DNA of 49,411 nt from Actinophytocola xanthii. Lineage in GTDB: Bacteria > Actinomycetota > Actinomycetes > Mycobacteriales > Pseudonocardiaceae. The translations under genes were made by a program, and so were the position numbers. The stretch spans positions 1 to 49,411 of the forward strand of contig NZ_MSIE01000077.1 of assembly GCF_001921205.1 (NCBI RefSeq), in the 5' to 3' direction. Below the pieces are notes generated by a model. The model had not been told where the DNA came from. It did no database searches and saw nothing but the letters and a program-made list of their open reading frames with translations. Shown here one piece after another: positions 1-25,711 of this stretch (positions are counted from its first letter, which is position 1; each line of letters begins with the position of its first letter).

Positions 1-284
1 GCGTCGGCCGCGGCCAGCGCGGGCCGGACCGCCCGCCAGCGCCCGGCGCCGGCCGCGACGGCCGAGGCGAGCGTGGGGTGGTCCCGCGTGCCGTGCCGGA
101 GCTGGTCGACCAGGAGCGTCGCGCTCACCGGGTCGCCGGCCTCGCCGAGGACGGCCACCCCGAGCCCGGCGAGAAGCCGCGGCGACTCCAGCCCCATCAG
201 CAGCACGCCGAGCTCGGTGTCCGGGTCGTCGTCCACCGACGGGAGGGAGAAGGCCGTGTCGTAACCGTCGGCCGGTTCAGACAT
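1..284 (-). CDS. Partial hypothetical protein (3' end outside window)
   Basis: This is the 5' end of a gene read leftwards off the window edge; 94 residues are visible. The start is the ATG at 284, which overlaps the stop of the preceding flavoprotein gene by 8 bases, so the two are likely translationally coupled. The visible part begins MSEPADGYDTAF and has an acidic DDDPDTE stretch, followed by a Leu/Ala/Gly-rich, probably helical region. I recognise no domain. By position it is the last visible gene of the minus-strand oxidative module of the enediyne locus, and its function is unknown. Confidence 0.6.
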   Translation of the reverse strand, partial: MSEPADGYDTAFSLPSVDDDPDTELGVLLMGLESPRLLAGLGVAVLGEAGDPVSATLLVDQLRHGTRDHPTLASAVAAGAGRWRAVRPALAAAD

Positions 285-1569
285 GGGCGGCCACCTCCGC
301 CCGCAGCCGGGCGGCCACGGTCGCCACGATCCGCGCGCTGGCGACCCGGTGGCCGTCGATGTTGCGAGCCGCCGGACCCAGCACCATGCAGGCCGCCGCC
401 CCGGCGGCGAACACCCGGGGCGCGCGGCGGTAGGCGAGCGTGCGCTCGTCGAGGTCGGGCCAGCCGTCGCGGGCGCCGACCAGCCGGTCGGGCAGCAGGC
501 CGGTGCCGATCGAGGGCACCGTGCCCAGCGCGAGCACGACGTGGTCGCCGGCCAGCCGCCGTCCGTCGCCGAGCACGACCGCTCCGGCGTCGACCGAACC
601 GACCGGCCGACCGCGGTGCACCCGCAGCCGACCGTTCGCCTCGGCCTCGGCCAGGATCGGCCGGAACTCGAACATGACCGACGCCCGCCGCTCGCGGGCC
701 ATCAGGGCCAGGCGCCGCTCCCAGGGCACGCCGTCGAAACGGGCTCTGCCCTCGGCGCGGAAGAACGAGGCGTTGACGTCGGAGCACTGGTAGCGCTCGG
801 ACTCCGCGCGCAGCACCCAGTCGACCTCGCCACCCCGGGCGAGCGCGTTGTGGATCACGTGCGCGGCCGTGAGCCCGGCGCCGACGACGACCACCCGCCG
901 GGCGTCCGCCGGCACCGGCTCGTCCCAGTAGCCCACCCGCGCCGGCCGGTCGCCGGTCCACCAGCCGGCGGGCGCCGCGCGGCGCTCCTCCCCCTGGCAC
1001 AGCACGACGTACCGCGCGTCGAGGTCGAACCCCTCCGCCCGCACCGCGACCCGGTCCTCGCCGACCTCCAGCGCGCGCACCTCGGCCGGCCAGAGCCGGT
1101 CCGGCACGTGGTGAAGCTCGGCGGTGTGCCGGCAGTAGGCCTCGAACACGTCGACCGGCACCACCGAGCGGTGGCCTGCCTGGGACATACGGACCTCGCC
1201 GCGCTCGACAGCGGTCAGCACACCCCAGTGCACCCTGGCGAAGTCGCGCAGCTCGCAGTCGCGGTAGCCCTCGACGCCGGGGTGGTGCTCGTAGGGCGAG
1301 CGCAGCACCCGCTGCTCGAGCCGGTCGACCCGGTCCAGGAACCGGCCGGCCGGTCGGCCGTCCCGGTCCAGCAGGACGACGTCGCGCACCCCCACGTGCC
1401 ACAGCGCGGCCGTGACGGCGAGCCCCGCCGGCCCGGCGCCGACGACGACCACCTGGGCCGCGGTGGGCGGCCGGTCGGCGCGTACCGGCCGCGCCGGTTC
1501 TGGCCAGCGCGGCCACGGCCGGTGGCGGGGTGAGCCCAGCAGCCGGGGGTGGGGGACGAACCGGGTCAC
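277..1569 (-). CDS. FAD/NAD(P)-binding oxidoreductase, lysine/ornithine N-monooxygenase-like
   Basis: A 430-residue flavoprotein. An N-terminal Rossmann motif VVVVGAGPAGLA (about residue 40) should bind FAD. A second motif, VVVVGAGLTAAH (about residue 210), should bind NAD(P)H. A late ALGTVPSIG segment and a C-terminal NIDGH segment fit the single-component flavin monooxygenases near SidA/IucD/PvdA, though the actual substrate is unknown. The GTG start at 1569 overlaps the upstream TGA as GTGA, so the gene is coupled to the 182-residue protein before it. In this setting it probably hydroxylates or oxidises an enediyne intermediate or a peripheral group. That role is inferred from position only. 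Confidence 0.7.
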   Translation of the reverse strand: MTRFVPHPRLLGSPRHRPWPRWPEPARPVRADRPPTAAQVVVVGAGPAGLAVTAALWHVGVRDVVLLDRDGRPAGRFLDRVDRLEQRVLRSPYEHHPGVEGYRDCELRDFARVHWGVLTAVERGEVRMSQAGHRSVVPVDVFEAYCRHTAELHHVPDRLWPAEVRALEVGEDRVAVRAEGFDLDARYVVLCQGEERRAAPAGWWTGDRPARVGYWDEPVPADARRVVVVGAGLTAAHVIHNALARGGEVDWVLRAESERYQCSDVNASFFRAEGRARFDGVPWERRLALMARERRASVMFEFRPILAEAEANGRLRVHRGRPVGSVDAGAVVLGDGRRLAGDHVVLALGTVPSIGTGLLPDRLVGARDGWPDLDERTLAYRRAPRVFAAGAAACMVLGPAARNIDGHRVASARIVATVAARLRAEVAAHV

Positions 1570-2114
1570 CCGATGACCGTGACCGGCACGATCACCTCGA
1601 TGGTCGACCGCTCGGGCATGCCGTCGGTGACCACCTGCTGGAGCAGTTCCTCGGACCTGTCCGCGCCGTCGGAGGAGACCGGGCTGTAGCGCGCGTGCGC
1701 GTAGGCCGGCCGGCGCTGCTCGGTCTCGATCTCGAACACCTTGAGCACGGCCTCCCCGGGCCGCACCTCGCCGTCGTAGAAGGTCAGCCGGCGCATGTCC
1801 GGGGTGAGGAACGTCTTGGCGAACTGGCGCGACATCACCATCGCCTCGCCGCCCTCGACGAAGTGGGTGTACTCGTCGGTGGTGACCTGCATGGCGACCC
1901 AGGTCTGGTCGGTCAGGTTGGTCTCGGACTTGATGATCTGCCAGCGTCCCGGCTCCGGCAGGTTGATCGAGACCGAGACGTCGTAGTCGACCGCGTCGAT
2001 GGCCCCGGAGATCATCAGCACCCGGCGTCGCAGGTCCGCGACCCCGGCCATCTGGATGTCCCTGGCCCGTACCCGGCCGGAGACGTCCAGGCCGGGAACC
2101 TCCAATGACGACAT
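1566..2114 (-). CDS. Conserved-looking hypothetical protein of the enediyne module
   Basis: A 182-residue soluble protein with no signal peptide or membrane segment. The start is the ATG at 2114, six bases after a clear GGGAGG ribosome-binding site. Alternating hydrophobic segments (for example DYDVSVSINLP and EVIVPVTVIG) suggest a mainly beta fold. I do not recognise the family. It lies between the GMC oxidoreductase (119 bases upstream) and the flavoprotein it overlaps, so it is probably part of the same tailoring module, perhaps a small partner protein or a cyclase/isomerase-like fold. No catalytic residues can be assigned. Confidence 0.6.
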   Translation of the reverse strand: MSSLEVPGLDVSGRVRARDIQMAGVADLRRRVLMISGAIDAVDYDVSVSINLPEPGRWQIIKSETNLTDQTWVAMQVTTDEYTHFVEGGEAMVMSRQFAKTFLTPDMRRLTFYDGEVRPGEAVLKVFEIETEQRRPAYAHARYSPVSSDGADRSEELLQQVVTDGMPERSTIEVIVPVTVIG

Positions 2115-2233
2115 GGCGCACCTCCCAGCAACGGGCGGACGCGGGTCGTCCACCCACCACGCTCGTGTCCGCCCAAGCGTGGCACACGTCACACCGCCGC
2201 TCAATACTCCACGTGGTCCATAGTGGACCTCCG
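2115..2233 (-). promoter_or_regulatory. Spacer with GGTCCA-TAG-TGGACC palindrome
   Basis: This 119-base gap separates the GMC oxidoreductase from the 182-residue gene. It holds a perfect 6-base inverted repeat with a 3-base centre at 2215-2229, immediately next to a CCACGTGG palindrome (2209-2216). It could be an internal operator or a weak hairpin after the oxidoreductase. No convincing -35/-10 pair was found. Confidence 0.35.
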
Positions 2234-3871
2234 TCAGGCAGCCGGTTCCGCGGTCGGCGGGGAGGTGGCGGCCGCCCTCGGCAGCGGCGCGCCGTAGGTC
2301 ACCTCGACACCACGCTCGCGCGCGGCGCGGACGATCCCGGGCACCGCCCGCTCGGCCAGCGCGGCGATGGTCAGCGCGGGGTTCACGGTCAGCGCGCCGG
2401 GCACGGCCGAGCCGTCGGTGACGAAGATGCCCGGGTGGCCGCGCAGTTCGTGCCGGTCGTCCAGTGCCGAGGTCGCGGGGTCGTCCCCGATCCGGCAGGA
2501 GGACAGCGGGTGCACCGTGTACGCCCCGACCACGTCGTTGGTCCACGGCGCGACCGTGGCCAGGCCGTCCCGCTCGAGGATCTCCTTCACCTGGGCGTCG
2601 GCCTCGGCCCACCCGCGCAGCGTGTTCGGCGTCGGGTCGTAGCGCAGCGGTCCGCGACCGAGCATCTGCTGGGAGATGCGGTAGGCGTTGCCGGTGGGCG
2701 GGGGCGCGCCGAACACGCCCTCGTTGTCGTCCTCGGTCATCAGGAAGACGGTGAGCCACGAGCGCCAGCGCTTGAGGATCTCCTTCTTCTCCCTGCCGAA
2801 CCAGCTCGGCCCGGTCGCGCCCGGCGCCTGGGCGAGGATCGTGCCCAGGCCCGGTGGGAAGTACAGCTGCTCCAGGGAGAACCGGGAGTACTCCGGACGG
2901 GCGGCGTCCAGGTAGTCCCAGCAGGCGACGACCGGGCCCTTGCCGATCTGGTTGGCCTCGTAGACCGACCCGTCCGGCCGGCGCAAGCCGAGCAGCTCGC
3001 CCGCCCGCTCCTCGTTGACGATGGCGGTGTTGAGGCGTTCGCCGTTGCCGGAGAAGTACCGGCCGACCGCGTGCGGCATCCGGCCGAGCGTCTCCTCCGA
3101 GCGCTGCAGGATCACCGGGGTGGCGCCCGCGCCAGCGGCCAGGATCACGATCTTCGCGTCGATCTCCCCGGCGCCGGTGGTGACCCGGTAGTCCTCGCCG
3201 TCGATGTGGTTGTAGTGCACCCGGTAGCCGCCGTCCTCGGTGCGCGAGATCCGCTGCACCTCGTGCAGGGGCCGGATCCGCGCGCCGTGCGCGACGGCCG
3301 CCGGGAGGTAGTTGAACAGCAGCGACTGCTTCGCGTCGAACTTGCAGCCGGCCATCATCCAGTTGCAGTTGACGCACTTGGCGTTGTCGATGCCCACGGG
3401 CACCGGGTTGGCGCTGCGGCCGGAGTGGTTGCACGCCGCGGCCCACAGACCGCCCGCGTAGGTCACGTCGCCCCACCCCTGCTGGCGCACCGGCATGACC
3501 TCGGAGACCCGGTCGTACCAGGGGTCGAGGCTGTCCCGGTCGATGGCCGACGGCCACATCCGGCGGCCGATCGACCCGTGCCGTTCGAAGACGAACCGGG
3601 GTGCCCTGGGCAGCGCGGCGAAGTAGACGACGCTGCCGCCGCCGACACAGTTCCCGCCGAGCACGCTCATGCCGTCGCCAGCGACGAAGTCGAACACGCG
3701 TGTGTAGGACTTGCCGAGGAGGTAGTCGTGGTCGAAGTCCTTGCCCTCCAACCAGGGCCCGCGCTCGAGCACCGTCACCTTCGCCCCGCCCGCGGCGAGG
3801 TGGTAGGCGGTGATCGAGCCGCCGAAGCCGCTGCCCACGATGAGGACGTCGGTGCTCTCGGTGGCGCTCAT
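2234..3871 (-). CDS. GMC-family FAD oxidoreductase (enediyne E9 type)
   Basis: A 545-residue flavoenzyme of the glucose-methanol-choline/cholesterol-oxidase group. The N-terminal GSGFGGS motif (about residue 13) binds the FAD ADP moiety. A GGGSVVY segment and the C-terminal VTDGSAVPGALTVNPALTI block are GMC signatures, and the late HPLSSC segment carries the usual active-site histidine region. Cysteines in CVNCNWMMAGC resemble the cysteine cluster of bacterial GMC dehydrogenases. Length and type match the E9 oxidoreductase of nine-membered enediyne clusters such as SgcE9, a comparison made from memory. The start ATG at 3871 overlaps the upstream stop as ATGA. The likely role is oxidation of the enediyne core or an alcohol on it. 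Confidence 0.85.
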   Translation of the reverse strand: MSATESTDVLIVGSGFGGSITAYHLAAGGAKVTVLERGPWLEGKDFDHDYLLGKSYTRVFDFVAGDGMSVLGGNCVGGGSVVYFAALPRAPRFVFERHGSIGRRMWPSAIDRDSLDPWYDRVSEVMPVRQQGWGDVTYAGGLWAAACNHSGRSANPVPVGIDNAKCVNCNWMMAGCKFDAKQSLLFNYLPAAVAHGARIRPLHEVQRISRTEDGGYRVHYNHIDGEDYRVTTGAGEIDAKIVILAAGAGATPVILQRSEETLGRMPHAVGRYFSGNGERLNTAIVNEERAGELLGLRRPDGSVYEANQIGKGPVVACWDYLDAARPEYSRFSLEQLYFPPGLGTILAQAPGATGPSWFGREKKEILKRWRSWLTVFLMTEDDNEGVFGAPPPTGNAYRISQQMLGRGPLRYDPTPNTLRGWAEADAQVKEILERDGLATVAPWTNDVVGAYTVHPLSSCRIGDDPATSALDDRHELRGHPGIFVTDGSAVPGALTVNPALTIAALAERAVPGIVRAARERGVEVTYGAPLPRAAATSPPTAEPAA

Positions 3872-4449
3872 TCTGGGCTCCCCGACTCGGTCGTGTTCGG
3901 ATGGCGCTTGGCGAGCTCCTGGCCGTAGCCGTAGTCCGGGAAGCGCCACAGGCCGTCGGCGTCCGGTTTGGCGAAGCCCATCGCGAGCAGCCCCGGGTGT
4001 CCGTCGGCGATGGCCTCGGCCGTGCTGCGGTGCGCCGCGCTGTCGTAGGCCATGTTGCTGAACAGGGCCAGCAGCACCCAGCCGTCGCGCTCCGGGTGAC
4101 CGGGGGCGGTCAGCTCCGCGACCAACGCCGCGCGATCGTCGTAGGACAGCGCCACGAACGGCGGCACGTCGGTGTCCACCACCCGCCCGTGCCGCTCCGC
4201 GAACGCGCTCGCGTGGGCGTTGAGGGCCTGCGACAGCGGGGTGAGGCCCTCGCTGACGCCGGTCGCGGGCGTCGCGAGCAGCTCGAGCGCGCCTGCCTCG
4301 ACCGCGCCCGGATCCTCGCACACCCCGGCGATCGCGCGATCTCCAGGGAATCGTTTCACGCCCGGGACGATCGTGTCCGCGAATGCCTCCAGGGTAATGG
4401 TCCGGACCTGCTCGTCGAATTCTTCGGCTGAGCTCACGGTTTCTCCCAT
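3868..4449 (-). CDS. Small partner of GMC oxidoreductase (DUF5987/E8-like)
   Basis: A 193-residue protein. The start ATG at 4449 is chosen because GAGGAG lies nine bases upstream; a longer reading frame from 4623 would run into the divergent regulatory region. The segment TLEAFADTIVPG recalls gluconate-2-dehydrogenase subunit-3-like proteins that accompany GMC oxidoreductases. Gene order (directly before the GMC gene, ATGA overlap) and length agree with the E8 protein of enediyne clusters. The DUF5987 label is a recollection, not a search result. It is probably required for folding or activity of the oxidoreductase; no catalytic residues are evident. Confidence 0.6.
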   Translation of the reverse strand: MGETVSSAEEFDEQVRTITLEAFADTIVPGVKRFPGDRAIAGVCEDPGAVEAGALELLATPATGVSEGLTPLSQALNAHASAFAERHGRVVDTDVPPFVALSYDDRAALVAELTAPGHPERDGWVLLALFSNMAYDSAAHRSTAEAIADGHPGLLAMGFAKPDADGLWRFPDYGYGQELAKRHPNTTESGSPE

Positions 4450-4693
4450 CGCTACCGGCTCCTCATTTTGTCCGGGCGGCCCACGTCGCTGCATCTTCGT
4501 CCGTGCCCAGCCAGAAAGGACGCCCGCACCTGCACGGACGCACTCCGCTGAAGCATCCCTTGACCACCGTTGACCCGGCAGTAGTGGGGTCGTCGAACAG
4601 GACAGGACCATGGTTGTAACCAATTACCAGCCGACCTACCGTCACTTTCAGACGAGCTTTCGAGCCTCCCTATACCATGAGCGGTGCCATCAA
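4450..4693. promoter_or_regulatory. Divergent control region, E8-like gene / araC-type gene
   Basis: The region holds a direct repeat TTGACC at 4560-4565 and 4570-4575, spaced one helical turn, as expected for AraC-family half-sites. It also holds the inverted repeat TGGTT-GT-AACCA at 4611-4622. A TATACC (4671-4676) 18 bases before the ATG at 4694 could be the -10 of the regulator gene. The region is clearly less GC-rich than its flanks. All assignments are by eye. Confidence 0.4.
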
Positions 4694-5524
4694 ATGGACG
4701 ACGTTATCGAGAAGGCAGTCGAGCGGGTGATCCGGTCCATGCACGCCAATCTGGGCGAGCCGATCACAATCGACGACATGGCCCGGACCGCGATGTTCAG
4801 CAAGTTCCACTTCTCGCGGATCTTCCAGCGGGTCACCGGGATCTCCCCCGGGCGGTTCCTGTCCGCGCTGCGGCTGCAGCGGGCCAAGTACCTGCTGCTG
4901 ACCACCGACCTGACCGTCGCCGACATCAGCCATGTGGTCGGCTACAACAGCATCGGGACGTTCAGCTCCCGGTTCCGCACCAGCGTCGGCGTCTCGCCGA
5001 CCGAGTACCGGCAGCACCGGGGGTGTGTGCCCCCGCTGGCCGGCTGGGACCCGCTGCCCAAGCCCCGCCGAGAGCAGCAGGACCGGCGGCCGAGCGTGCG
5101 CGGCCGGGTCTGGCAGCCGCCGGCCTGCCGGCCGGGACGGGTCGTGGTGGGGCTGTTCCCCGACCGCATCGCCCAGGGCACGCCGGTCCGGCACACGACA
5201 CTGCCCGCGGCGGGCGAGTTCGTCCTGGAGGACGTGCCCCCGGGGACCTGGCACCTGCTCGCGCACTCGATGGAGAGCGACGGCGAGGCGGGCGAGGACA
5301 ACGGTCTGGCCGAGTACGGCGAGCTCACCGCCAACCAGGCCTACGTCGGCGCGTTCGGGCTGGACGTCGCGTCCGGCCGCGCGGTGCACGAGGTCGACGT
5401 CTGGTTGCGCGCCCGGCGGATCTTCGACCCGCCGGCGCTGCTCGCCCAGGTCGACGCGCCGATGTGGACGACCGAGGCACGGGCTGCTGGCAGGGTTGAG
5501 CACGCCGCCCTGCCAGGAGCCTGA
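4694..5524 (+). CDS. AraC-family transcriptional regulator with N-terminal HTH
   Basis: A regulator of 276 residues from the ATG at 4694. The double helix-turn-helix is at the N terminus (about residues 6-105), with TIDDMARTAMFSKFHFSRIF and the C-terminal signature GYNSIGTFSSRFRTSVGVSPTEYR. The remaining 170 residues look like a beta-sandwich sensor (VVVGLF, GEFVLEDVPPGTWHLLAHS). In most AraC proteins the HTH is C-terminal, so this is the reversed order. The in-frame ATG at 4610 has a fair AGGA site, but codons 4610-4693 have only about 60 percent GC in third positions, unlike the rest of the gene, so I reject it. It probably controls the divergent oxidative module. Confidence 0.85.
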   Translation: MDDVIEKAVERVIRSMHANLGEPITIDDMARTAMFSKFHFSRIFQRVTGISPGRFLSALRLQRAKYLLLTTDLTVADISHVVGYNSIGTFSSRFRTSVGVSPTEYRQHRGCVPPLAGWDPLPKPRREQQDRRPSVRGRVWQPPACRPGRVVVGLFPDRIAQGTPVRHTTLPAAGEFVLEDVPPGTWHLLAHSMESDGEAGEDNGLAEYGELTANQAYVGAFGLDVASGRAVHEVDVWLRARRIFDPPALLAQVDAPMWTTEARAAGRVEHAALPGA

Positions 5525-5540
5525 CCAACACCGTCGGCAG

Positions 5541-5591
5541 ACCACGAGGAGGCGCCCGCGGCCAAAGCCGCGGGCGCCTCCTCGTCGTGGT
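5541..5591. terminator. Bidirectional terminator between araC-type gene and P450 gene
   Basis: A perfect 18-bp GC-rich stem (5545-5562 pairs with 5567-5584) around a CAAA loop, extended by ACCA/TGGT on the outside. It sits between two convergent genes and ends both transcripts. Confidence 0.85.
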
Positions 5592-5603
5592 CGCCGCGGG
5601 GGC

Positions 5604-6992
5604 TCACCGCCTCGACACGCGCATCGGCAGGCCGCCGCGCAGCCGCAGGGACAGCATCGGCTCGGCGACGACCTCGTGGCCCGGCACCTTCGTCAGCCGC
5701 AGCTCGCGGGCGAGCATGGCCAGCACGAACGTCGCCTCCATCAGCCCGAGGTGGTTGCCGACGCAGAACCGCGGCCCGGCGCCGAACGGGATGAACGCGT
5801 ACCGCGGCCGGTCGTTGGGCCGGTCGGGGTCGAACCGGTCGGGGTCGAACCGGTCCGGCTCGGTCCAGAACGAGGGGTGCCGGTGCATCGTGTACGGGCA
5901 CACCATGACGTCGGCACCGGCCGGGACGCGGTAGCCGCCCACGACGTCCTCCCCCAGCGCGCGGCGGGTGAGGATCCAGACCGGCGGGAACAGGCGCATC
6001 GACTCGTTGATCACCATGGCCGTGTAGCGCAGCCGAGCGAGGTCGGCGAAGGTCGGCAGCCGGTCGCCCAGCACCGCCACCGCCTCCTCGTGCAGCCGCT
6101 GCGCGACCTCGGGGTGGTCGTCGACCAGGTGCAGCGCCCAGCCCAGCGTGCTCGCCGTGGTCTCGTGCCCGGCCAGCAGCAGCGTGGTCAGCTCGTCGCG
6201 CATGCGCCGGGCACCGACGCGCGGGTCCCGCTCCAGGCTGGTCGAGTGGATCAGCCGGGTCAGCACGTCGTCGCCGTCCGGTCGCGGGTTGGCCAGCCGG
6301 TCGGCGACCAGGGTGTCGACGATGCGCTGCAGGTCCCGGCGGGCCCGGCGGAACCGGCGCTGCTTGGGCAGCGGCAGCCACAGCGGGACCATGCCCATCG
6401 ACTCCATCTCGAACATGGCCTGGTCCTGCACGGCCTCGAAGCTGTGCCCGATCGAGTCGAACGCGCCGAGGTCCGCGTCGAGCAGCGTGTGGCCGAGGAC
6501 GCCGAGGGTGAACCCGGTGACCTCACCCAGCACGTCCACCGGCGGGCCGCCGGCGTGCGCGCGCAGCCGACCGAGCAACGCCTGCGCCTCGGTGGCGACC
6601 ACGTCGGCCAGTCCGGTGATGCGCTTGCTCTGGAACACCGGCTGGATGGTCCGCCGCTGCTTGCGCCACAGCTCGCCGGCGCTGGTGAGCAGCCCGTCGC
6701 CGAGCGCCCGCTTGGCCTCCTGGTACCCGATGCCCTTCTCGTAGTTCCCGGCGTTGTCCGCCAGTACGTACTTGGCCGTGTCGGGGTGGTTGAAGAAGTA
6801 GAGCGTCTTCGGGCCGATGCTCACCTTCACCGCGTCGCCGTAGGTGCGTGCCGCGGTGGACATGAGTGTCAGCCGGTCGCCGGCCAGCTGGCGCAGGAGC
6901 GTGAGGGTCGCGCTGCGCGGCGGGCCGGGCGGCACCCGGGGCTCCCCGGATGCCGCCCGGCCGCCCGCGACCGCGTCGTCGACAGCGGTCAT
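5604..6992 (-). CDS. Cytochrome P450 (enediyne E7 type)
   Basis: A 462-residue P450. The I-helix oxygen-activation motif is AGHETTAS, the ExxR motif is ESMRLFPP, and the heme loop FGAGPRFCVGNHLG supplies the cysteine thiolate ligand. There is no membrane anchor. It is the last gene of the minus-strand operon led by the SARP and overlaps unbU as ATGA, so it is co-translated with the enediyne core genes. E7 P450s are a recurring part of enediyne clusters and are thought to oxidise the core. The region before the heme loop reads PDRFDPDRFDPDRP because of a 15-bp tandem duplication. The substrate is not known. Confidence 0.9.
   Translation of the reverse strand: MTAVDDAVAGGRAASGEPRVPPGPPRSATLTLLRQLAGDRLTLMSTAARTYGDAVKVSIGPKTLYFFNHPDTAKYVLADNAGNYEKGIGYQEAKRALGDGLLTSAGELWRKQRRTIQPVFQSKRITGLADVVATEAQALLGRLRAHAGGPPVDVLGEVTGFTLGVLGHTLLDADLGAFDSIGHSFEAVQDQAMFEMESMGMVPLWLPLPKQRRFRRARRDLQRIVDTLVADRLANPRPDGDDVLTRLIHSTSLERDPRVGARRMRDELTTLLLAGHETTASTLGWALHLVDDHPEVAQRLHEEAVAVLGDRLPTFADLARLRYTAMVINESMRLFPPVWILTRRALGEDVVGGYRVPAGADVMVCPYTMHRHPSFWTEPDRFDPDRFDPDRPNDRPRYAFIPFGAGPRFCVGNHLGLMEATFVLAMLARELRLTKVPGHEVVAEPMLSLRLRGGLPMRVSRR
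5821..5850 (-). repeat. 15-bp perfect tandem duplication in the P450 gene
   Basis: The unit CGGTCGGGGTCGAAC occurs at 5821-5835 and 5836-5850, followed by a partial third CGGTCC. It duplicates five residues (PDRFD) in the conserved PxRF region ahead of the heme loop and keeps the frame. Confidence 0.9.
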
Positions 6993-18914: not shown

Positions 18915-18917
18915 GAG

Positions 18918-19397
18918 ATGTCCGGCTACTACGAGATCCGCCACACGGTGGGCTTCGAGGAGACCAACATCGTCGGCAACGTCTACTACGTCAACTACCT
19001 GCGCTGGCAGGGGCGGTGCCGGGAGATGTTCCTCAAGGAGCACGCCCCGGACGTGCTGGCGGACCTACAGCAGGACCTGAAGCTGTTCACGCTCAAGGTG
19101 GAGTGCGAGTTCTTCGCCGAGATCACCGCGTTCGACGAGCTGTCCGTGCGGATGCAGCTGGAGGAGCTGACCCAGACCCAGGTCCAGTTCAGCTTCGACT
19201 ACGTCAAGCTCGAGGACGGTCTGGAGAGCCTGGTGGCCCGGGGCCGCCAGCGGATCGCGTGCATGCGCGGGCCGAACAACGACACCGTGCCGACCCGGGT
19301 TCCGGCCGCTCTGCGTACCGCGCTCGAGCCGTACTCGGCCGACTCGGTGAACGCGGCGGCCGGGGCCGAGTCCGCCGGCGTCAGGACCGGGCGGTGA
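18918..19397 (+). CDS. tebC: Enediyne thioesterase TEBC (E10), hot-dog fold
   Basis: A 159-residue hot-dog thioesterase that releases the polyene from the PKS. The active-site stretch ETNIVGNVYYVNYLRWQGRCREMFL carries Asn17 and Arg33/Arg35, matching the Asn/Arg pair described for CalE7-type enzymes; the catalytic Asp/Glu of other 4-HBT enzymes is absent, as is usual here. The gene begins three bases after the PKS stop and its own stop overlaps the flavin reductase start as GTGA, so PKS, thioesterase and reductase form one transcript. Length is typical; the last 25 residues are a low-complexity tail. Confidence 0.95.
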   Translation: MSGYYEIRHTVGFEETNIVGNVYYVNYLRWQGRCREMFLKEHAPDVLADLQQDLKLFTLKVECEFFAEITAFDELSVRMQLEELTQTQVQFSFDYVKLEDGLESLVARGRQRIACMRGPNNDTVPTRVPAALRTALEPYSADSVNAAAGAESAGVRTGR

Positions 19398-19969
19398 CCG
19401 CGGCGCGGCGGGAGCCGGCCGCGGCTCCCGCCCAGCCGGTCGCCCGGCTGCGCCCGGACCAGGACCCGGAGAGCGCGAAGCTGGCGCTGCGGGACGTGAT
19501 GTCCCACTTCGCCACGGGGATAACCGTGCTCACCGCACGCGGCGAGCGCGCCCACGGGATGACCGCGAACGCGTTCACGTCGGTCTCGCTCGACCCGCCG
19601 ATGGTGCTCTGCTGCGTCGCCCGCACCGCCCGCATGCACGAGGCCATCCTGGGCGCCCGCAACTTCGGGGTGTCGGTGCTGTGCGCGGAGCAGGAAAGCG
19701 TCGCCCGCTACTTCGCCAGCCGGGAACGGCCGGCGGGGATGGCCCAGTTCGAGCGGGTGGACTGGTTCCCCGGCCGGCACACGGGCGTGCCGCTGCTGGT
19801 CGGATCGCTGGCCTGGCTGGAGTGCGACCTGACCGAGGTCTACGAGGGCGGCGACCACTCGATCTTCCTCGGCACGGTCCGCGGGGCCGGCCGGGGCGGC
19901 GGCCAGGCGCTGCTGTTCCTCGGCGGCGGCTTCCACCGCCACGGCCACCCCACTGCGCGCAGCGCCTGA
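19394..19969 (+). CDS. Flavin reductase (enediyne E6 type)
   Basis: A 191-residue NAD(P)H:flavin oxidoreductase of the HpaC/split-barrel family (LRDVMSHFATGITVLTA, GMTANAFTSVSLDPPMVLCCV, FGVSVLC, F.R..W, GGDHSIFLGTV, GGGFH). It supplies free FADH2 to a two-component monooxygenase; no such partner is seen in the window, so it may lie further left or elsewhere. The GTG start at 19394 overlaps the thioesterase stop. It corresponds to the E6 gene of known enediyne clusters. Confidence 0.9.
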   Translation: MTAARREPAAAPAQPVARLRPDQDPESAKLALRDVMSHFATGITVLTARGERAHGMTANAFTSVSLDPPMVLCCVARTARMHEAILGARNFGVSVLCAEQESVARYFASRERPAGMAQFERVDWFPGRHTGVPLLVGSLAWLECDLTEVYEGGDHSIFLGTVRGAGRGGGQALLFLGGGFHRHGHPTARSA

Positions 19970-19988
19970 CCCGACGAGGAGTGTGGCG

Positions 19989-21017
19989 ATGTTGGTGTGC
20001 GTGACGGGCGGTACCGGGTTTGTCGGTGCCCACACGGTCGCCGCGGTCCTCGCGGCCGGTCACCGGGTCCGCCTCCTGGTCCGCGAAGGTTCCGCTGTGG
20101 ACAGTCCACTCGCCGCGGTGGGGGTTCCGCCCGGCGCGGTCGAGGTGGTCGCCGGCGACGTCCTCGACGAGGCGGCCGTCGCGCGGGCCGTCCGCGGCGC
20201 CGACGCGGTGCTGCACGCGGCCGCGGTCTACTCGTTCGACCCCAGGGACCGGGCGCGGGTCCGCGCGACCAACCGCCGCGGGACCGAGGTGGTGCTCGAG
20301 GCGGCGTGGCGGGCCGGCACCGGGCGCGCGGTCCACGTGTCCAGCGTCGCGGCCCTGTACCCGGCCGCCGGACCGGTCGACGAGAACTCCCCGGTGGGCC
20401 GCGCCCGCGAGCCGTACTCGGCCAGCAAGGCGGCCGCCGAGCGGGTGGCCCGCCACCACCAGAAGCGGGGCGCGCCGGTCGCGATCACCTACCCACCCGC
20501 GCTGCTCGGGCCGCACGACCCCCGGCTCGGCGACCAGACCCGCCGGCTGCGCGACACGCTGCGCGGCCTGATGCCGGTCTGGCCGGACGGCGGGTTCCCC
20601 CTCGGGGACGTCCGGGACACCGCGGCCCTGCACGCCGAGGTGCTCACCGGGTCCGGCGCGGGTCGCCACTTCGGCCCCGGCCGCTACCTGACCACCCGCG
20701 AACAGCTGCGGACCCTGCGCGAGGTCACCGGCCGCGCGCTCCCCGCGGTCCACCTCCCGGCCCGGGCGCTGCTGCCGGTGGGGCTGTTGGCCGGGCTCGC
20801 CCAACGGGTCTGGCCCTGGCACCTCCCGGTGGAGCACGGCGCGATCCACACCTGCGCCACCGCCACCCCGGTCGCCGCCTCGGCCGCCCGCGGCCGGGTC
20901 CCGGCACGGCCGGTGGCCGAGACGGTCGCCGACACCGTGGCCTGGCTGCACGAAGCGGGCCACATCTCCGCCCGGGCCGCCGGCCGGGCCGTCACCCGGG
21001 AGGTGCGGATCGGATGA
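19989..21017 (+). CDS. NAD-dependent epimerase/dehydratase (extended SDR)
   Basis: A 342-residue extended short-chain dehydrogenase. TGGTGFVGAHT near the N terminus binds NAD(P). The catalytic set is SSVAAL and YSASKAAAE (Tyr-x3-Lys). The dihydroflavonol-reductase-like subgroup is suggested by VLHAAAVYSFD. The ATG at 19989 is preferred to the GTG at 19983 because GAGGAG lies eight bases before it. It is downstream of the flavin reductase and overlaps the carboxylase gene by ATGA. A role in reducing a ketone on the core or an attached unit is possible; sugar epimerisation is less likely because no sugar genes are present. Confidence 0.85.
   Translation: MLVCVTGGTGFVGAHTVAAVLAAGHRVRLLVREGSAVDSPLAAVGVPPGAVEVVAGDVLDEAAVARAVRGADAVLHAAAVYSFDPRDRARVRATNRRGTEVVLEAAWRAGTGRAVHVSSVAALYPAAGPVDENSPVGRAREPYSASKAAAERVARHHQKRGAPVAITYPPALLGPHDPRLGDQTRRLRDTLRGLMPVWPDGGFPLGDVRDTAALHAEVLTGSGAGRHFGPGRYLTTREQLRTLREVTGRALPAVHLPARALLPVGLLAGLAQRVWPWHLPVEHGAIHTCATATPVAASAARGRVPARPVAETVADTVAWLHEAGHISARAAGRAVTREVRIG
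20097..20109. repeat. 13-bp palindrome GTGGAC-A-GTCCAC
   Basis: A perfect inverted repeat with a 1-base centre, 108 bases inside the SDR gene. A sister copy with another centre base lies at 21068-21080, early in the next gene. It could be a binding site or a constrained codon run. Confidence 0.5.
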
Positions 21018-22660
21018 GCTCCGCAGAGTACGACTACGTCCCACCACCGCCACCGCCGCTGATGTCGGTGGACGGTCCACACCGGAAACGGCAGCGGCCG
21101 CAACAACGGCCCGCGTCCATGCGGGCGCTGCGCGCCCGGCTCGACGGGCTGCGCGAGCAGGTGCTCGACGGGCGGGCCGAGGCCGTCGAGCGACAGCGCG
21201 CGCTGGGCAAGCGCACCGCGCGCGAGCGGCTGGACCTGCTGCTGGACGAGGACTCCTTCCTCGAGGTCGACATCTACCGGCGGCACCAGGCCAGCGGGCT
21301 GAAGGTCAGCGAGAGCCGGCCGCACACCGACGGGGTGGTCGCCGGGTCGGGCACGATCGACGGGCGCCGCGTCTTCGTCTACGCGCAGGACTTCACCATC
21401 TTCGGCGGCTCGCTGGGTGCCGCGCACGCGGCCAAGATCCACAAAGTGATGGACCTGGCCCTGAACGCGGGCGCTCCGCTGATCGGCCTCAACGACAGCG
21501 GCGGCGCGCGGATCCAGGAGGGCGTGCCCGCCCTCGACGGGTACGGCGGCATCTTCCGCCGCCACGTCGCGGCGTCGGGCATCATCCCGCAGATCAGCGT
21601 GATCCTCGGGCCGTGCGCGGGTGGCGCGGCCTACTCTCCCGCGCTGACCGACTTCGTGTTCATGGTTCGTGAGACCGCGCAGATGTACCTCACCGGCCCG
21701 GACGTGATCGCCTCGGTCACCGGTGAGCAGGTGAGCCACCAGGAGCTCGGCGGGGCGGACGTGCACGGCACCCGTTCCGGCGTGGCCACGTTCGTGCACG
21801 ACGACGAGGAGAGCTGCCTGGCCGACGTGCGCTACCTGGTGTCGATCCTGCCGCCCAACAACATGGAGCCGGCACCCGAGTTCCCCGCCTGCGACGCCGA
21901 ACGCGACGAGCGCCCACGACTGGCCGAGATCGTGCCGGCGGACCTGTCCAAGCCCTACGACATGCGCGCGGTCCTCGCCGAGGTCGTCGACGACGGCGAG
22001 TACCTGGAGATCCACGAGCACTGGGCCACGAACGTGGTCTGCGCACTGGCCCACATAGACGGTCGGCTGGTCGGCGTGGTGGGCAACCAGCCGGCCGTGC
22101 TCGCCGGCGTGCTGGACATCCCCGCCTCGGAGAAGGCGGCCCGGTTCGTGCGGTTCTGCGACGCGTTCAGCATCCCGCTGGTGACGCTGGTGGACGTACC
22201 CGGGTTCCTGCCCGGGACCGGCCAGGAGTACGACGGCATCATCCGCCACGGCGCCAAGCTGCTCTACGCCTACTGCGAGGCGACGGTCCCGAGGATCCAG
22301 GTGATCGTCCGCAAGGCCTACGGCGGGGCCTACATCGTCATGGACTCCCGCTCGGTGGGTACCGACCTCTCCCTCGCCTGGCCGACCAACGAGATCGCCG
22401 TACTGGGCGCGGAGGGCGCGGTCGACGTGCTGTTCCGCCGCGAGCTGGCCGCCGCGGAGGACCGCGTGCGGCTGCGCGGGGACCTCGTGGCGCAGTACAC
22501 CGAGCAGCTCATGCACCCCCAGTACGCGGCCGAGCGCGGCCTGGTCGACGACGTCATCGACCCGGCGTGGACCAGGGCGGTGGTCGCCAAGGGCCTCGCG
22601 ATGCTGCGCACCAAACGGAAGCACGCACCACGCCGCAAGCACGGGAATATTCCACTGTAG
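21014..22660 (+). CDS. Acyl-CoA carboxylase beta subunit (carboxyltransferase)
   Basis: A 548-residue biotin-dependent carboxyltransferase of the PccB/AccD type, with both crotonase-fold halves complete. Signatures are GGSLGAAHAAKIHKVMDLAL, NDSGGARIQEG and GPCAGGAAYSPALTDF in the first half, and VDVPGFLPGTGQEYDGIIRHGAKLLYAY and RKAYGGAYIVMDSRS in the second. The extra N-terminal 35 residues are proline-rich. It would transfer CO2 from biotin to acetyl- or propionyl-CoA, so it probably boosts malonyl-CoA supply for the PKS. No alpha/biotin subunit is in the window; it must borrow a chromosomal one. It overlaps the SDR gene. Confidence 0.93.
   Translation: MSSAEYDYVPPPPPPLMSVDGPHRKRQRPQQRPASMRALRARLDGLREQVLDGRAEAVERQRALGKRTARERLDLLLDEDSFLEVDIYRRHQASGLKVSESRPHTDGVVAGSGTIDGRRVFVYAQDFTIFGGSLGAAHAAKIHKVMDLALNAGAPLIGLNDSGGARIQEGVPALDGYGGIFRRHVAASGIIPQISVILGPCAGGAAYSPALTDFVFMVRETAQMYLTGPDVIASVTGEQVSHQELGGADVHGTRSGVATFVHDDEESCLADVRYLVSILPPNNMEPAPEFPACDAERDERPRLAEIVPADLSKPYDMRAVLAEVVDDGEYLEIHEHWATNVVCALAHIDGRLVGVVGNQPAVLAGVLDIPASEKAARFVRFCDAFSIPLVTLVDVPGFLPGTGQEYDGIIRHGAKLLYAYCEATVPRIQVIVRKAYGGAYIVMDSRSVGTDLSLAWPTNEIAVLGAEGAVDVLFRRELAAAEDRVRLRGDLVAQYTEQLMHPQYAAERGLVDDVIDPAWTRAVVAKGLAMLRTKRKHAPRRKHGNIPL
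21068..21080. repeat. 13-bp palindrome GTGGAC-G-GTCCAC
   Basis: The second perfect copy of the GTGGAC-N-GTCCAC element, 54 bases inside the carboxyltransferase gene, in the part coding its variable N-terminal extension. Confidence 0.5.
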
Positions 22661-22675
22661 ACATCGGGGGATGCA

Positions 22676-23392
22676 ATGGACGCGAACCTCAACGAGGTGG
22701 GGAGGCCGACCCTGCGCGGCACCCGGGTGCCCAACCAGGTCAGCTACCGGCAGGTGCGCGAGAACGTCACCGAGCTGCTGCTCGCCGGCCGCCCGGACGA
22801 GCGGTCACCCGTGCCGGCCTGTCCCGAGTGGAGCATCAGGGACCTCGTCGAGCACCTCGTCGGGGTCGCCGCACTGGGCATCGGACGGCTCTCCGGGTGG
22901 CCGGCCGACAGCTCGCGCCCGTCGACGGCGATGGACCTGGCCGAGCTGCTCGAGGAGTGGGCTCGACTCGGGGAGGTCGCCGACCGGCTGCTCGCCGACC
23001 ACGGCGGCCGCGCGGGGACGATCCTGGTGATGGACGCGTTCACCCACGAGCTGGACCTCCGCTTCGCGCTCGGCACCCCGCTGCCCGACGAGCACCCGGC
23101 CTTCGCCGGCGCCTTCGGGGTGCTCGCCGCCGGCTTCGCCGCCTCGGTCGCCGCGCACCACCTGCCCGGCGTGCGGCTGTCGGTCGGGCCCACCCAGTGG
23201 ACGGTCGGCGACGACGAGCCGGCCGCCACGGTGCACGCCGACCGCTTCGACCTCTACCGCTCGCTGGCCGGCCGGCGCACCCATGAGCAGATCGCCGAAC
23301 TGGGCTGGGACCGCGACTCCCACCGCTGGCTCCCCGCGTTCACCTGGGGGCCCTTCACCCCGCCGGCGTCGCCTGTCGAGCGCGCCCGCTGA
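22676..23392 (+). CDS. Maleylpyruvate-isomerase/DinB-fold protein (TIGR03083 type)
   Basis: A 238-residue protein of the mycothiol-dependent maleylpyruvate isomerase group. The N-terminal four-helix bundle has CPEWSIRDLVEHLVG, with the first metal histidine, and VMDAFTHELDLRFAL, with the D-x3-H pair where the family usually has E-x3-H. A small C-terminal domain follows. Such enzymes use or bind mycothiol. Enediynes are activated by thiols, so a protective or thiol-linked tailoring role is attractive but unproven. The ATG at 22676 follows a GGGGG site 15 bases after the carboxylase stop. The 3' end overlaps the convergent TetR gene by 38 bases. Confidence 0.75.
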   Translation: MDANLNEVGRPTLRGTRVPNQVSYRQVRENVTELLLAGRPDERSPVPACPEWSIRDLVEHLVGVAALGIGRLSGWPADSSRPSTAMDLAELLEEWARLGEVADRLLADHGGRAGTILVMDAFTHELDLRFALGTPLPDEHPAFAGAFGVLAAGFAASVAAHHLPGVRLSVGPTQWTVGDDEPAATVHADRFDLYRSLAGRRTHEQIAELGWDRDSHRWLPAFTWGPFTPPASPVERAR

Positions 23393-24059
23393 CCTCCGCC
23401 GAGGCCGGCGCCGACGCCGGCTTCGACGCCCGCACCGACGCCCGCACCGACGCCTCGGCCGCAGCCGTCGAGTCGCCCGCCCCGACCATCAGCGTGACCA
23501 GCTGGGTCTCGAAGCACCGGTCGGGGCCGCACGGGTCCACCAGGTACTCGCCGATCTCCATCGTGACCAGCCCGTGGACGGCGAGCCACATGTGGTGGGC
23601 CACCAGCTCCGGCTCGACGTCGCGGAACCGTCCTGCCTCGACGCAGCTCCGGGCGCACTCCACGACGCGGCTCAGCGTGAACCGGCCGTACTGGCGGTCC
23701 TCCTCGGTGAGTCGGAACCCGGCCAGCGTGCGGCCGCCGAACATCACCGAGTACAGGTCGGGGTTGTCCACCGCGGTCCGGCGGTAGGCGCGGCCGAACG
23801 CGGCCAGGTCCGCGACCGGGTCGTCGGACTCCGCAATCTGCGAGAAAGCCCGCTCCAACCTGCTGAAACCCTCGTGGACGATCTCCCGCACGAGGCCGCT
23901 CATGCTGCCGAAGTGGGTGTAGACCGCCATTGTCGAGGTACCCGCTTCAGAGGTGATCCGCCGGGCCGACAACGACTCGGGGCCCTCCTCGGCAAGCAGC
24001 CGGGCGGCGATCTGGACCAGTTCGACGCGGGCTGCGGGATCCCGCCGGCGAGGACTCAT
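23355..24059 (-). CDS. TetR-family repressor
   Basis: A 234-residue TetR regulator. The HTH lies at about residues 12-58 (ITSEAGTSTMAVYTHFGSMSGLV). The ligand domain has WLAVHGLVTMEIGEYL, and the C-terminal tail is an Ala/Ser/Arg repeat (ASVRASVRASKPASAPAS) coded by imperfect tandem 12-bp units at 23401-23460. No Shine-Dalgarno site precedes the ATG, so the transcript may be leaderless. A perfect palindrome (24068-24081) nine bases upstream is its likely operator. It probably represses itself and the divergent small gene and downstream DinB-fold gene, in response to a toxic ligand such as the pathway product. Confidence 0.9.
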   Translation of the reverse strand: MSPRRRDPAARVELVQIAARLLAEEGPESLSARRITSEAGTSTMAVYTHFGSMSGLVREIVHEGFSRLERAFSQIAESDDPVADLAAFGRAYRRTAVDNPDLYSVMFGGRTLAGFRLTEEDRQYGRFTLSRVVECARSCVEAGRFRDVEPELVAHHMWLAVHGLVTMEIGEYLVDPCGPDRCFETQLVTLMVGAGDSTAAAEASVRASVRASKPASAPASAEVSGRARQATPAG

Positions 24060-24061
24060 GT

Positions 24062-24090
24062 TTGACAGTGTTACATAACACCCGTATCTT
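24062..24090 (+). promoter_or_regulatory. Consensus promoter with TetR operator in its spacer
   Basis: TTGACA (24062-24067), a 17-bp spacer and TATCTT (24085-24090) form a near-consensus sigma-70-type promoter, rare in such GC-rich DNA. The spacer contains the perfect inverted repeat GTGTTA-CA-TAACAC (24068-24081). A TetR protein bound there would block polymerase. The site also lies at the start of the TetR gene. Confidence 0.75.
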
Positions 24091-24153
24091 TAGAAGTACA
24101 ACGGCGTTATGGATAAGGAATCCGACGTCTTCCGTACAGATGAGGCGAATGCC

Positions 24154-24465
24154 ATGAGAGAACACGACGTGGGCGGTGCGCTTCCCCGCTCCCGTTTTCG
24201 GATGGAGACCGGCCTCGAGGTGCTCGAGGAGTGGACGCAGACCGCTTCCCAGTCCCAGAAGAACGCCGTGTACGAGGCGCTGTTCGCCATGCTCGACGGC
24301 TCCCTGTTCCGCCGGTACCGCATCGTGGACGACTTCCAGCGGCCGAGCGAGCTGTTCGTGATCGTGCGCGACGACCTGGTCGTGAAGATCCGGGTCAACT
24401 GCTTCGACTCCTTCGGCGTCGTGCACATCGGCGCCTGCGGGCCCCGACAGGGCATCTGCGGATAA
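24154..24465 (+). CDS. Small hypothetical protein (103 residues)
   Basis: A soluble protein from the ATG at 24154, chosen because GAGG lies eight bases upstream; the ATG at 24109 has no ribosome site and falls in promoter DNA. The segments RMETGLEVLEEWTQTAS, KNAVYEALFAMLDGSLFRRY and ELFVIVRDDLVVKIRVN suggest an alpha/beta domain related to small actinobacterial DUFs (possibly DUF6235, from memory). It is transcribed from the TetR-controlled promoter, so it may belong to a stress or self-protection response. The function is unknown. Confidence 0.65.
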   Translation: MREHDVGGALPRSRFRMETGLEVLEEWTQTASQSQKNAVYEALFAMLDGSLFRRYRIVDDFQRPSELFVIVRDDLVVKIRVNCFDSFGVVHIGACGPRQGICG

Positions 24466-24529
24466 GACTCCGCGTTCCCCGCCCGGTCATGCTTGAGGCG
24501 GACCTGACACCGGGCGAGAGGACAGACAC

Positions 24530-25321
24530 GTGATCCAGCGGGACGTGATCTCCGACCTGACCGCGGAGGCGAACGAGGTCGACCAGCTCGTCGCCGGTCT
24601 CGACGCGGCCGGCTGGCAGCGGCCGACGCCGGCCCCCGGCTGGACGGTCGCCCACCAGGTCGCCCACCTGGCCTTCATCTTCCGGCTGGCCGGGACCGCC
24701 GCCGCCGACCCAGAGCTGTTCACCGCGATGACGGCCAAGGTCGGCCAGGACTTCGAGGCGGCGGTGAACGGCGCCCTGCGTGAGTACCTCGACGACCAGC
24801 CGGAGGTGCTGCTCACCCGCTGGCGGGCCGAGCGGGACGGGGCGATCAAGGCGCTGGCCGCGGTGCCGGCCGACCAGGTCGTGCCGTGGCTGGTCCGCCC
24901 GCTGCCGCCGGCGGTGCTGGCCTGCGCGGGAATCATGGAGCTGTTCGGGCACGGTCAGGACATCGCCGACGCGCTCGCGGTGACCCGAACCCGCACCGAC
25001 CGGCTCTGGAACCTCGCCTGGTTCGCCACGCTCACCTGGGACTTCGGCTACCAGTCACGCGGGCTGACCCCGCCGGACGTGCGGTTCCGCTACGAGCTCA
25101 CCGCACCCTCCGGGGAGATCTGGGAGTTCGGTCCCGCCGACGCCGAGCAGCGGATCAGCGGTCCCGCCGAGGACTTCTGCCTGCTGGTCACCCGGCGCCG
25201 GCACCGCGACGACCTCGCCCTGACGGCGGTCGGCGCCGACGCCGACCACTGGCTGGACATCGCCCAGGCCTACCGCGGGCCGGCCGGCGAGGGCCGCCGA
25301 CCGGGCCAGTTCTCGGCCTGA
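24530..25321 (+). CDS. DinB/MDMPI-fold putative metal enzyme (TIGR03084 type)
   Basis: A 263-residue protein starting at GTG 24530 behind GAGAGGA. The N-terminal helical bundle has WTVAHQVAHLAF and the intact metal set E-x3-H-x2-D in IMELFGHGQDIADAL. The C-terminal beta domain includes ISGPAEDFCLLVTRRRHRDDLALTAVG. This matches the TIGR03084 branch of maleylpyruvate-isomerase-like proteins, whose reactions are mostly unknown but are linked to mycothiol or divalent metal. It is the second protein of this fold within 2 kb and lies downstream of the TetR-controlled promoter. A detoxification role is inferred. Confidence 0.8.
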   Translation: MIQRDVISDLTAEANEVDQLVAGLDAAGWQRPTPAPGWTVAHQVAHLAFIFRLAGTAAADPELFTAMTAKVGQDFEAAVNGALREYLDDQPEVLLTRWRAERDGAIKALAAVPADQVVPWLVRPLPPAVLACAGIMELFGHGQDIADALAVTRTRTDRLWNLAWFATLTWDFGYQSRGLTPPDVRFRYELTAPSGEIWEFGPADAEQRISGPAEDFCLLVTRRRHRDDLALTAVGADADHWLDIAQAYRGPAGEGRRPGQFSA

Positions 25322-25348
25322 GGCCGAGGCGGACCCGGGAGCGGGCAC

Positions 25349-25711
25349 ATGTCGGTCCGAGCCGTCCGCGGCGCGACCCAGGTGGACCGGGACGACCCGG
25401 CCCTCATCGCCGAGGGCACGACCGAGCTGCTCACCGAGGTGATCGGGCGCAACGGGCTGGACCCGGATGACCTGATCAGCGTCGTGTTCACCGTGACACC
25501 AGACCTGACCAGCGGCTTCCCCGCCGCGGCCGCCCGGGCGCTCGGGCTGACCGACCTGCCCCTGTTGTGCGCCACCGAGATCGACGTTCCGCACGCCCCG
25601 CGGCGGGTGGTCCGGCTGCTCGCCCACGTGGAGAGCGACCGCCCGCGGGCGGCGATCCGGCACGTGTACCTGCGCGGCGCGGCCGCACTGCGACCCGACC
25701 TGGCCGCGTAG
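25349..25711 (+). CDS. aroH: Chorismate mutase, AroH class
   Basis: A 120-residue monofunctional chorismate mutase of the trimeric AroH fold, converting chorismate to prephenate. Active-site residues line up with the Bacillus subtilis enzyme one position off: Arg7 (VRGATQ), Cys74 and Glu77 (LLCATEIDVP), Arg89 (or Arg86) and Tyr107 (HVYLRG). It starts 28 bases after the DinB-fold gene and is followed at once by a terminator, so it is probably the last gene of that transcript. It may be housekeeping or may feed an aromatic unit of the enediyne. Confidence 0.9.
   Translation: MSVRAVRGATQVDRDDPALIAEGTTELLTEVIGRNGLDPDDLISVVFTVTPDLTSGFPAAAARALGLTDLPLLCATEIDVPHAPRRVVRLLAHVESDRPRAAIRHVYLRGAAALRPDLAA

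Follow-up and report, generated by a model that had tools for sequence, protein, structure and literature searches.

The stretch of DNA analysed here (49411 bp, hereafter the window) is one entire contig, C180, of the draft genome G000 (8.34 Mb in 204 contigs, completeness 97.7%), whose host is an Actinophytocola species, a soil actinomycete of the Pseudonocardiaceae. Its left half carries an enediyne biosynthetic locus of 22 genes (3-25711), which were called from codon-position GC, start codons, overlaps and Pfam/NCBIfam matches. All of the named genes are open frames with no internal stops; the first, DUF6187, is truncated at the left edge, where the contig itself ends. Codon-position GC and Pfam led us to reject an operon on the plus strand at 283-3928. 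The reference throughout was the C-1027 (lidamycin) cluster on plasmid SGLP1 (NZ_CP013739.1) of Streptomyces globisporus C-1027, the only characterised cluster compared, and percentages to C-1027 are identities to its proteins. Counts of enediyne loci refer to 78 loci with an enediyne polyketide synthase (PKSE) kept from a scan of a genome collection, mostly covering 10 kb per side. The genes are as follows.

3..284, minus strand: DUF6187, truncated by the contig end and continuing on contig C171 (PF19685, 96.5 bits; 27-bp end overlap with C171; A. gossypii synteny)
277..1569, minus strand: NAD(P)/FAD flavoprotein, Lys/Orn monooxygenase-like (Pyr_redox_2 45 bits, PF13434 22 bits; 64-67% identity to 10 relatives)
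1566..2114, minus strand: DUF6423 (PF19987, 265 bits; predicted all-beta fold without firm structural match)
2234..3871, minus strand: E9, GMC oxidoreductase (78% to C-1027 GMC protein)
3868..4449, minus strand: E8, DUF5987 (PF19449, 299 bits; 64% to C-1027)
4610..5524, plus strand: AraC-type regulator (51% to C-1027 AraC gene)
5604..6935, minus strand: E7, cytochrome P450, start possibly at 6992 (PF00067, 273 bits; 63.5% to C-1027)
6989..8008, minus strand: E5, UnbU (PF03116, 26.3 bits, slightly below the cut-off of 27.7; 67% to C-1027)
8005..9936, minus strand: E4, UnbV, FG-GAP/ASPIC (55% to C-1027)
9933..10913, minus strand: E3, UnbL, a DUF1702 protein named G10 in the tree (PF08012, 421 bits; clade with C-1027 copy 2 and CB01950)
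11020..12018, minus strand: E2, second DUF1702 protein and nine-membered marker, named G11 in the tree (PF08012, 454 bits; clade with C-1027 copy 1, support 100/100)
12049..12885, minus strand: SARP regulator (BTAD, 153 bits)
13077..18914, plus strand: E, iterative PKSE of 1945 aa (Pfam KS, AT, KR and DH; active-site motifs; 56% to C-1027)
18918..19397, plus strand: E10, hotdog thioesterase (PDB 4i4j 246 bits, the best, CalE7 216, DynE7 142; 75.5% to C-1027)
19394..19969, plus strand: E6, flavin reductase (50% to annotated SgcE6)
19983..21017, plus strand: SDR/epimerase-family oxidoreductase (PF01370, 108 bits; matches in 34/78 enediyne loci)
21014..22660, plus strand: biotin-dependent carboxyltransferase, an extra copy (PF01039, 623 bits; matches in 38/78 loci)
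22676..23392, plus strand: DinB/MDMPI-fold protein (profile match; in 23/78 loci)
23355..24059, minus strand: TetR regulator (profile match)
24109..24465, plus strand: DUF6235 (PF19748, 118 bits)
24530..25321, plus strand: TIGR03084 metal-binding protein (TIGR03084, 316 bits; 64% to C-1027)
25349..25711, plus strand: chorismate mutase, AroH type (TIGR01796, 145 bits; the sole CM_1 match in the genome)

The five-gene cassette E3/E4/E5/E/E10, given in passages of PMC5181780 as the marker of enediyne clusters, is complete in the window at 52-75.5% identity to C-1027 (the two DUF1702 proteins 61% and 52%, the others as listed). The PKSE, which is full-length in all six Actinophytocola genomes examined, has the KS motifs DGACSSS at 210, HGTGT at 346 and KGNFGH at 381, the AT motif GHSLG at 655, an ACP-like DDLHLSSI and the DH residue H1496; the C-terminal PPTase domain was covered by an alignment with C-1027 only. 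The architecture expected of such a synthase is KS, AT, ACP, KR and DH. Cassette and motifs together confirm the enediyne locus recognised in the preliminary description, which on sequence grounds is real and intact. Its five diagnostic genes all lie in open frames as claimed, although the UnbL-type genes number two and not one (9933-10913 and 11020-12018). The E6-, E7-, E8- and E9-like genes were likewise all found (50-78% to C-1027), and the SDR, the carboxyltransferase and the lysine-monooxygenase-like flavoprotein were recovered by profile match. Both genes of the two DinB-fold proteins that it named are present, but the second is TIGR03084, a 64% counterpart of a C-1027 gene which we take to be, perhaps, E11. 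To these are added SARP, AraC and TetR regulators, DUF6423, DUF6235 and the chorismate mutase ending at 25711.

Ring class and relatives of the cluster

We compared 45 C-1027 proteins (24 and 21 from two stretches) with the genes of the window, the first 20 kb of contig C171 and contig C173 of the same genome. The window matches eleven core proteins as well as the AraC regulator, and C171 holds counterparts of AhpD (50%) and CMD (37%); all 14 of these (12 in the window, 2 on C171) are reciprocal best matches among the compared proteins. The remaining 31 proteins comprise 28 with no match in the same three stretches and three with broad-family matches only (a second P450, a second peroxidase-like protein, and RfbB against an epimerase of C173 at 33%). 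The likeness to C-1027 thus covers E, E2-E10, TIGR03084 and AraC in the window, and AhpD, CMD, ACAD, SgcJ-like proteins, a glycosyltransferase and an MFS exporter on C171. However, the gene order is not the same, SgcC4, SgcC, SgcC5, SgcD and SgcG have no counterpart on C180, C171 or C173, and the window cluster has as extras the SDR, the carboxyltransferase, the DinB protein, the DUF6423 module and the chorismate mutase. Moreover, the C-1027 cluster is plasmid-borne, whereas that of the window is flanked by genes collinear with a chromosome-sized genome and is not on a known plasmid.

Counterparts of the C-1027 beta-tyrosine and benzoxazolinate genes were absent from C180, C171 and C173, the benzoxazolinate genes not having been sought genome-wide. 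A genome-wide search with a congener's tyrosine aminomutase (73% to that of C-1027) gave a best match of only 38%, and the stretch of the metagenome-assembled genome (MAG) Dino_bin25 with SgcC and SgcC5 found no close DNA match across SgcC in the window's own genome. SgcF-like epoxide hydrolases (49% and 45%) lie on contigs C191 and C149, neither of which is joined to the cluster.

According to passages of PMC5181780, E2 marks nine-membered clusters and R3 ten-membered ones, and CB01950 is predicted to be ten-membered. In a tree of 49 DUF1702 proteins, in which CB01950 is locus L065, the two copies of the window split into two clades with support of 100/100. One clade holds G11 and C-1027 copy 1 and excludes L059, L060, L065, L070 and L076; the other holds G10, C-1027 copy 2 and these same five loci. 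We read the former as E2, the tree itself suggesting which C-1027 copy this is. There are two DUF1702 genes in the window's genome and one in that of CB01950. The class, left undetermined in the preliminary description, is therefore that of a nine-membered enediyne as judged from E2 and the E6-E9 set common with C-1027, all reciprocal best matches.

A ten-membered product, of the calicheamicin or anthraquinone-fused type, would find its argument in the PKSE, whose identity is about equal (56% each) to C-1027 and CB01950, the latter predicted to be ten-membered, and which does not fall beside C-1027 in a tree of 45 PKSEs. The preliminary description had looked to such a tree, but since C-1027 forms a long branch it is uninformative on nine versus ten, so that we base the class on E2 together with gene content. 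The number of DUF1702 copies alone is not a clean marker either, for the genomes of some loci in the CB01950 PKSE clade (G017, G024, G025 and G027) hold two or three. Set against these points are the presence of E2, the sharing of E6-E9 and TIGR03084 with C-1027, the single DUF1702 copy of CB01950, and a thioesterase nearer to 4i4j, presumably SgcE10, than to CalE7 or DynE7. Judged by E2 and gene content, without an R3 search, the ten-membered class is rejected, and we give it hardly any chance.

Among the closest clusters are uncharacterised ones. Those of the Actinophytocola MAG Dino_bin25 and of A. gossypii have PKSEs of 80% and 78% identity, respectively, and the same E9-to-E6 core order. 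The MAG contig differs in lacking a carboxyltransferase match and in having SgcC-, SgcC5- and SgcF-like genes, and the A. gossypii stretch examined has no SDR, carboxyltransferase or chorismate mutase. There, NAD-dependent DNA ligase LigA and DAHP synthase lie either side of TIGR03084, in and next to the enediyne cluster (L103:4236-8335); in a producing strain the ligase might play a part in DNA repair. The cluster of Amycolatopsis sp. CA-126428 (L067) has the core together with the SDR, carboxyltransferase, DUF6235 and DUF6423 module, and differs by an SgcF (71%), SgcJ and additional peripheral genes like those of C-1027. By description rather than by sequence, the amycolamycin cluster (acm) of Amycolatopsis sp. 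HCa4 is also similar, passages of PMC8037709 listing core genes E and E2-E11 with sugar genes. No characterised cluster of the same gene order, such as would have made the locus a known one, was found, with C-1027 as the sole cluster compared, and no paper on this Actinophytocola enediyne cluster was found, as judged from search listings. The window cluster is thus a new relative of known nine-membered enediyne clusters. Separately, a 237,379-bp contig of the collection (L229, L230, L293 and L294) carries TAM (78%), SgcD (64%), SgcG (77%), SgcF (74%) and SgcC (75%), all relative to C-1027, together with the DUF6423 module, and is likely that of a C-1027-like producer.

Extension of the cluster and a proposed pathway

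To the right of the cluster lie GH95, sugar ABC transporter and gyrase/topoisomerase-like genes, among others. Most of this flank has the same gene order in A. gossypii, with a DNA identity of 84-85% (25760-32873 and 36608-40559), which puts the right border of the cluster at ~25.7 kb. Leftward extension, suggested in the preliminary description, proved feasible: A. gossypii DNA left of and around DUF6187 matches contigs C173, C171 and C160 of the window's own genome. Comparison of 10 contig ends (45 pairs) gave three overlaps of at least 9 bp, namely C171 left with C180 left (27 bp, within DUF6187), C171 right with C173 left (84 bp) and C160 right with C173 right (15 bp). As these overlaps agree with the A. 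gossypii synteny, we propose the order C160-C173-C171-C180, by which the cluster runs onto C171 and probably onto C173 and would be roughly 66-71 kb long.

C171 carries two AhpD-like genes with a CxxCxxxH motif, SARP and HxlR regulators and a membrane protein 64% identical to a C-1027 gene. Its 29-38 kb section encodes an ACAD (61% to C-1027), three SgcJ-like proteins (61, 44 and 44%), a glycosyltransferase (37%) and an MFS exporter (53%), as well as two methyltransferases and a GMC oxidoreductase. With overlapping entries merged, each of the ACAD, SgcJ-like, glycosyltransferase and exporter genes is matched in 7-10 enediyne loci; at an identity of at least 50% the numbers are 7 for the ACAD, 8 for the first SnoaL protein, 1 for the glycosyltransferase and 4 for the exporter. 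The lack of sugar genes stated in the preliminary description is hence true within the window, but is an edge effect, given the glycosyltransferase and other peripheral genes on C171. At 1-5.3 kb of C173, an NDP-sugar dehydrogenase (TIGR03026, 341 bits) possibly provides sugar supply together with a partner of epimerase type, whose NCBIfam matches are all below their cut-offs.

Apoprotein and nonribosomal peptide synthetase (NRPS) genes were said to be missing, and this holds: the apoprotein family PF00960 has no match in the genome at its 97.7% completeness, and no NRPS-like counterparts occur on C180, C171 and C173. We consider it very probable that the window holds the right half, with the genes that build the core, of a nine-membered enediyne cluster on the chromosome; such enediynes are DNA-cutting antibiotics. 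The rest of the cluster would lie on C171 and, less surely, C173. The pathway proposed here follows the working scheme of the C-1027 family. By analogy with C-1027, the iterative PKSE would make a linear polyene, which E10 would release and which E2-E5, E6-E9 and the TIGR03084 protein would convert to the nine-membered enediyne core, the regulators presumably turning the cluster on. Genes of C171, and less surely of C173, may attach a sugar (through the glycosyltransferase), methylate the product and export it. On the simplest view the carboxyltransferase would serve precursor supply and the SDR a redox tailoring step, while the chorismate mutase (DAHP synthase at the same position in A. gossypii) might feed a shikimate/tyrosine route for an aromatic side group. 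We infer every one of these chemical steps, and agree with the preliminary description in leaving the product open.

Several observations weigh against this reading. The overlap of C171 with C180 is just 27 bp, and the SDR and carboxyltransferase vary within Actinophytocola, A. gossypii having neither in the stretch examined. PF00960 scores above its cut-off in one Amycolatopsis and in two congeners: A. gossypii reaches 78.8 bits, on a different contig, and G030 reaches 26.7 bits. An aromatic group fed by the chorismate mutase lacks a candidate, given the distant best tyrosine aminomutase match noted above. A block at 11.8-28.9 kb of C171 (L136:11834-20000 and L140:1-8876), encoding a YcaO-TfuA pair, two JmjC proteins, a PLP decarboxylase, aminotransferases, a CrtO-like oxidase, an SDR and an exporter, has no match above 35% among the enediyne loci examined, mostly within 10 kb of the PKSE, so that it may break up the cluster or mark the meeting of two clusters. 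The C173 sugar genes have a single 34% match near other enediyne loci, which makes their membership weak.

Two further explanations bear on these points. The C171 block could itself belong to the pathway and yield a hybrid, with a sulfur- or amine-bearing piece on the enediyne; it is flanked on both sides by enediyne-type genes, those at 0.2-10.3 kb and at 29-38 kb both matching C-1027. However, its YcaO, TfuA, JmjC and PLP decarboxylase genes have no match at all in the enediyne loci examined and the others none above 35%, and a separate neighbouring or inserted cluster accounts for it equally well, so we regard a hybrid product as unlikely. Alternatively, the cluster may be decayed or core-only and make no mature decorated enediyne, for which the missing apoprotein-family match, the absence of beta-tyrosine, benzoxazolinate and NRPS-like counterparts from the three contigs and the want of a close tyrosine aminomutase could be cited. 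Open core frames, intact PKSE motifs, retention of the PKSE in 6/6 Actinophytocola genomes, and the glycosyltransferase, methyltransferases, SgcJ-like proteins and exporter of C171 all speak against decay, which we think quite improbable.

Recurrent genes and the chorismate mutase

With the class of this cryptic cluster settled, its odd genes also prove to be recurrent in enediyne clusters of the Pseudonocardiaceae, and two testable leads emerge: next to the core, a putative feeder gene of the shikimate route, and the DUF6423 module with its strict order. The preliminary description could not match the gene combination, yet these genes recur near enediyne synthases in the Pseudonocardiaceae and some other families, as the counts across the 78 PKSE loci demonstrate (carboxyltransferase 38, SDR 34, TIGR03084 27, DinB protein 23, DUF6423 18, flavoprotein 18). 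When matches had to cover at least 40% of the protein, the carboxyltransferase was found in 37 loci and the SDR in 30, one or the other in 52/78 and both in 15/78. The carboxyltransferase starts within 1.5 kb downstream of the flavin reductase on the same strand in 32 of the 35 loci scoring both. It is not the sole copy in the window's genome, which has 11 matching stretches of the family, two others scoring higher. In G032, a second, short PKSE-like piece (contig C12, ~481.8-482.7 kb, L207) sits beside a thioesterase, flavin reductase, SDR, DinB, DUF6235 and an FMO that is 82% identical to the window gene at 44031-45794; the full PKSE is ~55 kb off, and the piece may be a split or decayed second copy.

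The chorismate mutase occurs in five of the six Actinophytocola genomes, every time on the PKSE contig and 6 to 50 kb from the PKSE. In four of the six it adjoins TIGR03084, at 27 bp in the window and 10-50 bp in G028, G030 and G032; in MAG Dino_bin25 the PKSE contig has no TIGR03084 match. On this linkage (5/5 genomes having the gene, adjoining in 4) we reject an unrelated neighbour; against that stands its presence near only 2/78 PKSE genes at large, both of Actinophytocola. A. gossypii has no chorismate mutase by CM_1 search, and a DAHP synthase directly follows its TIGR03084 gene (PRK08673, 459 bits, above cut-off; BagF/FevY, 595 bits, below cut-off). Since both enzymes serve the shikimate route, the position beside TIGR03084 looks like a shikimate feeder slot. 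No paper was found, by title, on an enediyne cluster with a chorismate mutase.

The DUF6423 module

Of the 297 genomes of the family, 30 carry DUF6423, each as a single copy. Surroundings were fetched for 25, the other five (G000, G028, G029, G159 and G168) being covered by other loci and the window, to which loci G159 and G168 were assigned by their contig coordinates, and all five are near enediyne genes. Around the 25 we found the flavoprotein in 25, DUF6235 in 24, an AhpD-like gene in 24, DUF6187 in 22, E9 in 18, the thioesterase in 18 and a PKSE of at least 50% identity in 16; the contig of G043 is just 3.5 kb long, and the PKSE of G240 lies slightly further out. Overall, 26/30 DUF6423 genes are near enediyne genes and 4/30 are not. 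The order DUF6423-flavoprotein-DUF6187-AhpD-like on one strand is kept in all 22 loci scoring all four, and in 23/24 a DUF6235 gene of the same orientation is located upstream, mostly within 1 kb.

Predicted models are all-beta for DUF6423 and all-helical for DUF6187, with no Foldseek match for either at E <= 0.001. By sequence, neither DUF6423 nor the flavoprotein, searched singly and as an alignment, matched any PDB entry at the E limits used. The best VIA Z for the DUF6423 model was 7.2, to the copper protein YcnI, a level that may reflect no more than a common arrangement; the 50 rows listed included no neocarzinostatin-type chains, which excludes nothing. None of DUF6423, DUF6187 and DUF6235 was named in any paper of the literature searched.

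Passages of PMC9854587 state that producers of nine-membered enediynes rely on an apoprotein for self-protection, and those of PMC5181780 count one in 7/21 predicted nine-membered clusters. With apoprotein-based protection known in such producers and none matched here, the module is one candidate for the means by which this strain would survive its own product; our two leading guesses at its function are self-protection and a redox step common to these pathways. We tentatively suggest, while holding it unlikely, that DUF6235-DUF6423-flavoprotein-DUF6187-AhpD-like is a portable unit for handling nine-membered enediynes, which would either protect the producer, by binding the reactive core or quenching it by redox chemistry, or carry out a late redox step that the pathways share, and which another genus has kept or gained without an adjoining enediyne cluster. 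If true, the unit would stand in for the apoprotein that is missing here. The genus in question has the module with no core enediyne gene within 40-60 kb per side in G129, G216, G227 and G254 (L246/L247, L260/L261, L266/L267 and L270/L271), which counts against a tie to enediynes, although standing apart from the cluster is frequent in resistance genes. Also adverse are the placements of DUF6235: G030 has it on the opposite strand, G032 at a distance of 4.5 kb, and the window's genome at 24.1 kb, where the rest of the module is at the left end and on C171.

Lastly, a gyrase/topoisomerase A- and B-like pair lies at 37405-42337, 12-17 kb to the right of the cluster, and its A side at least is collinear in A. 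gossypii.

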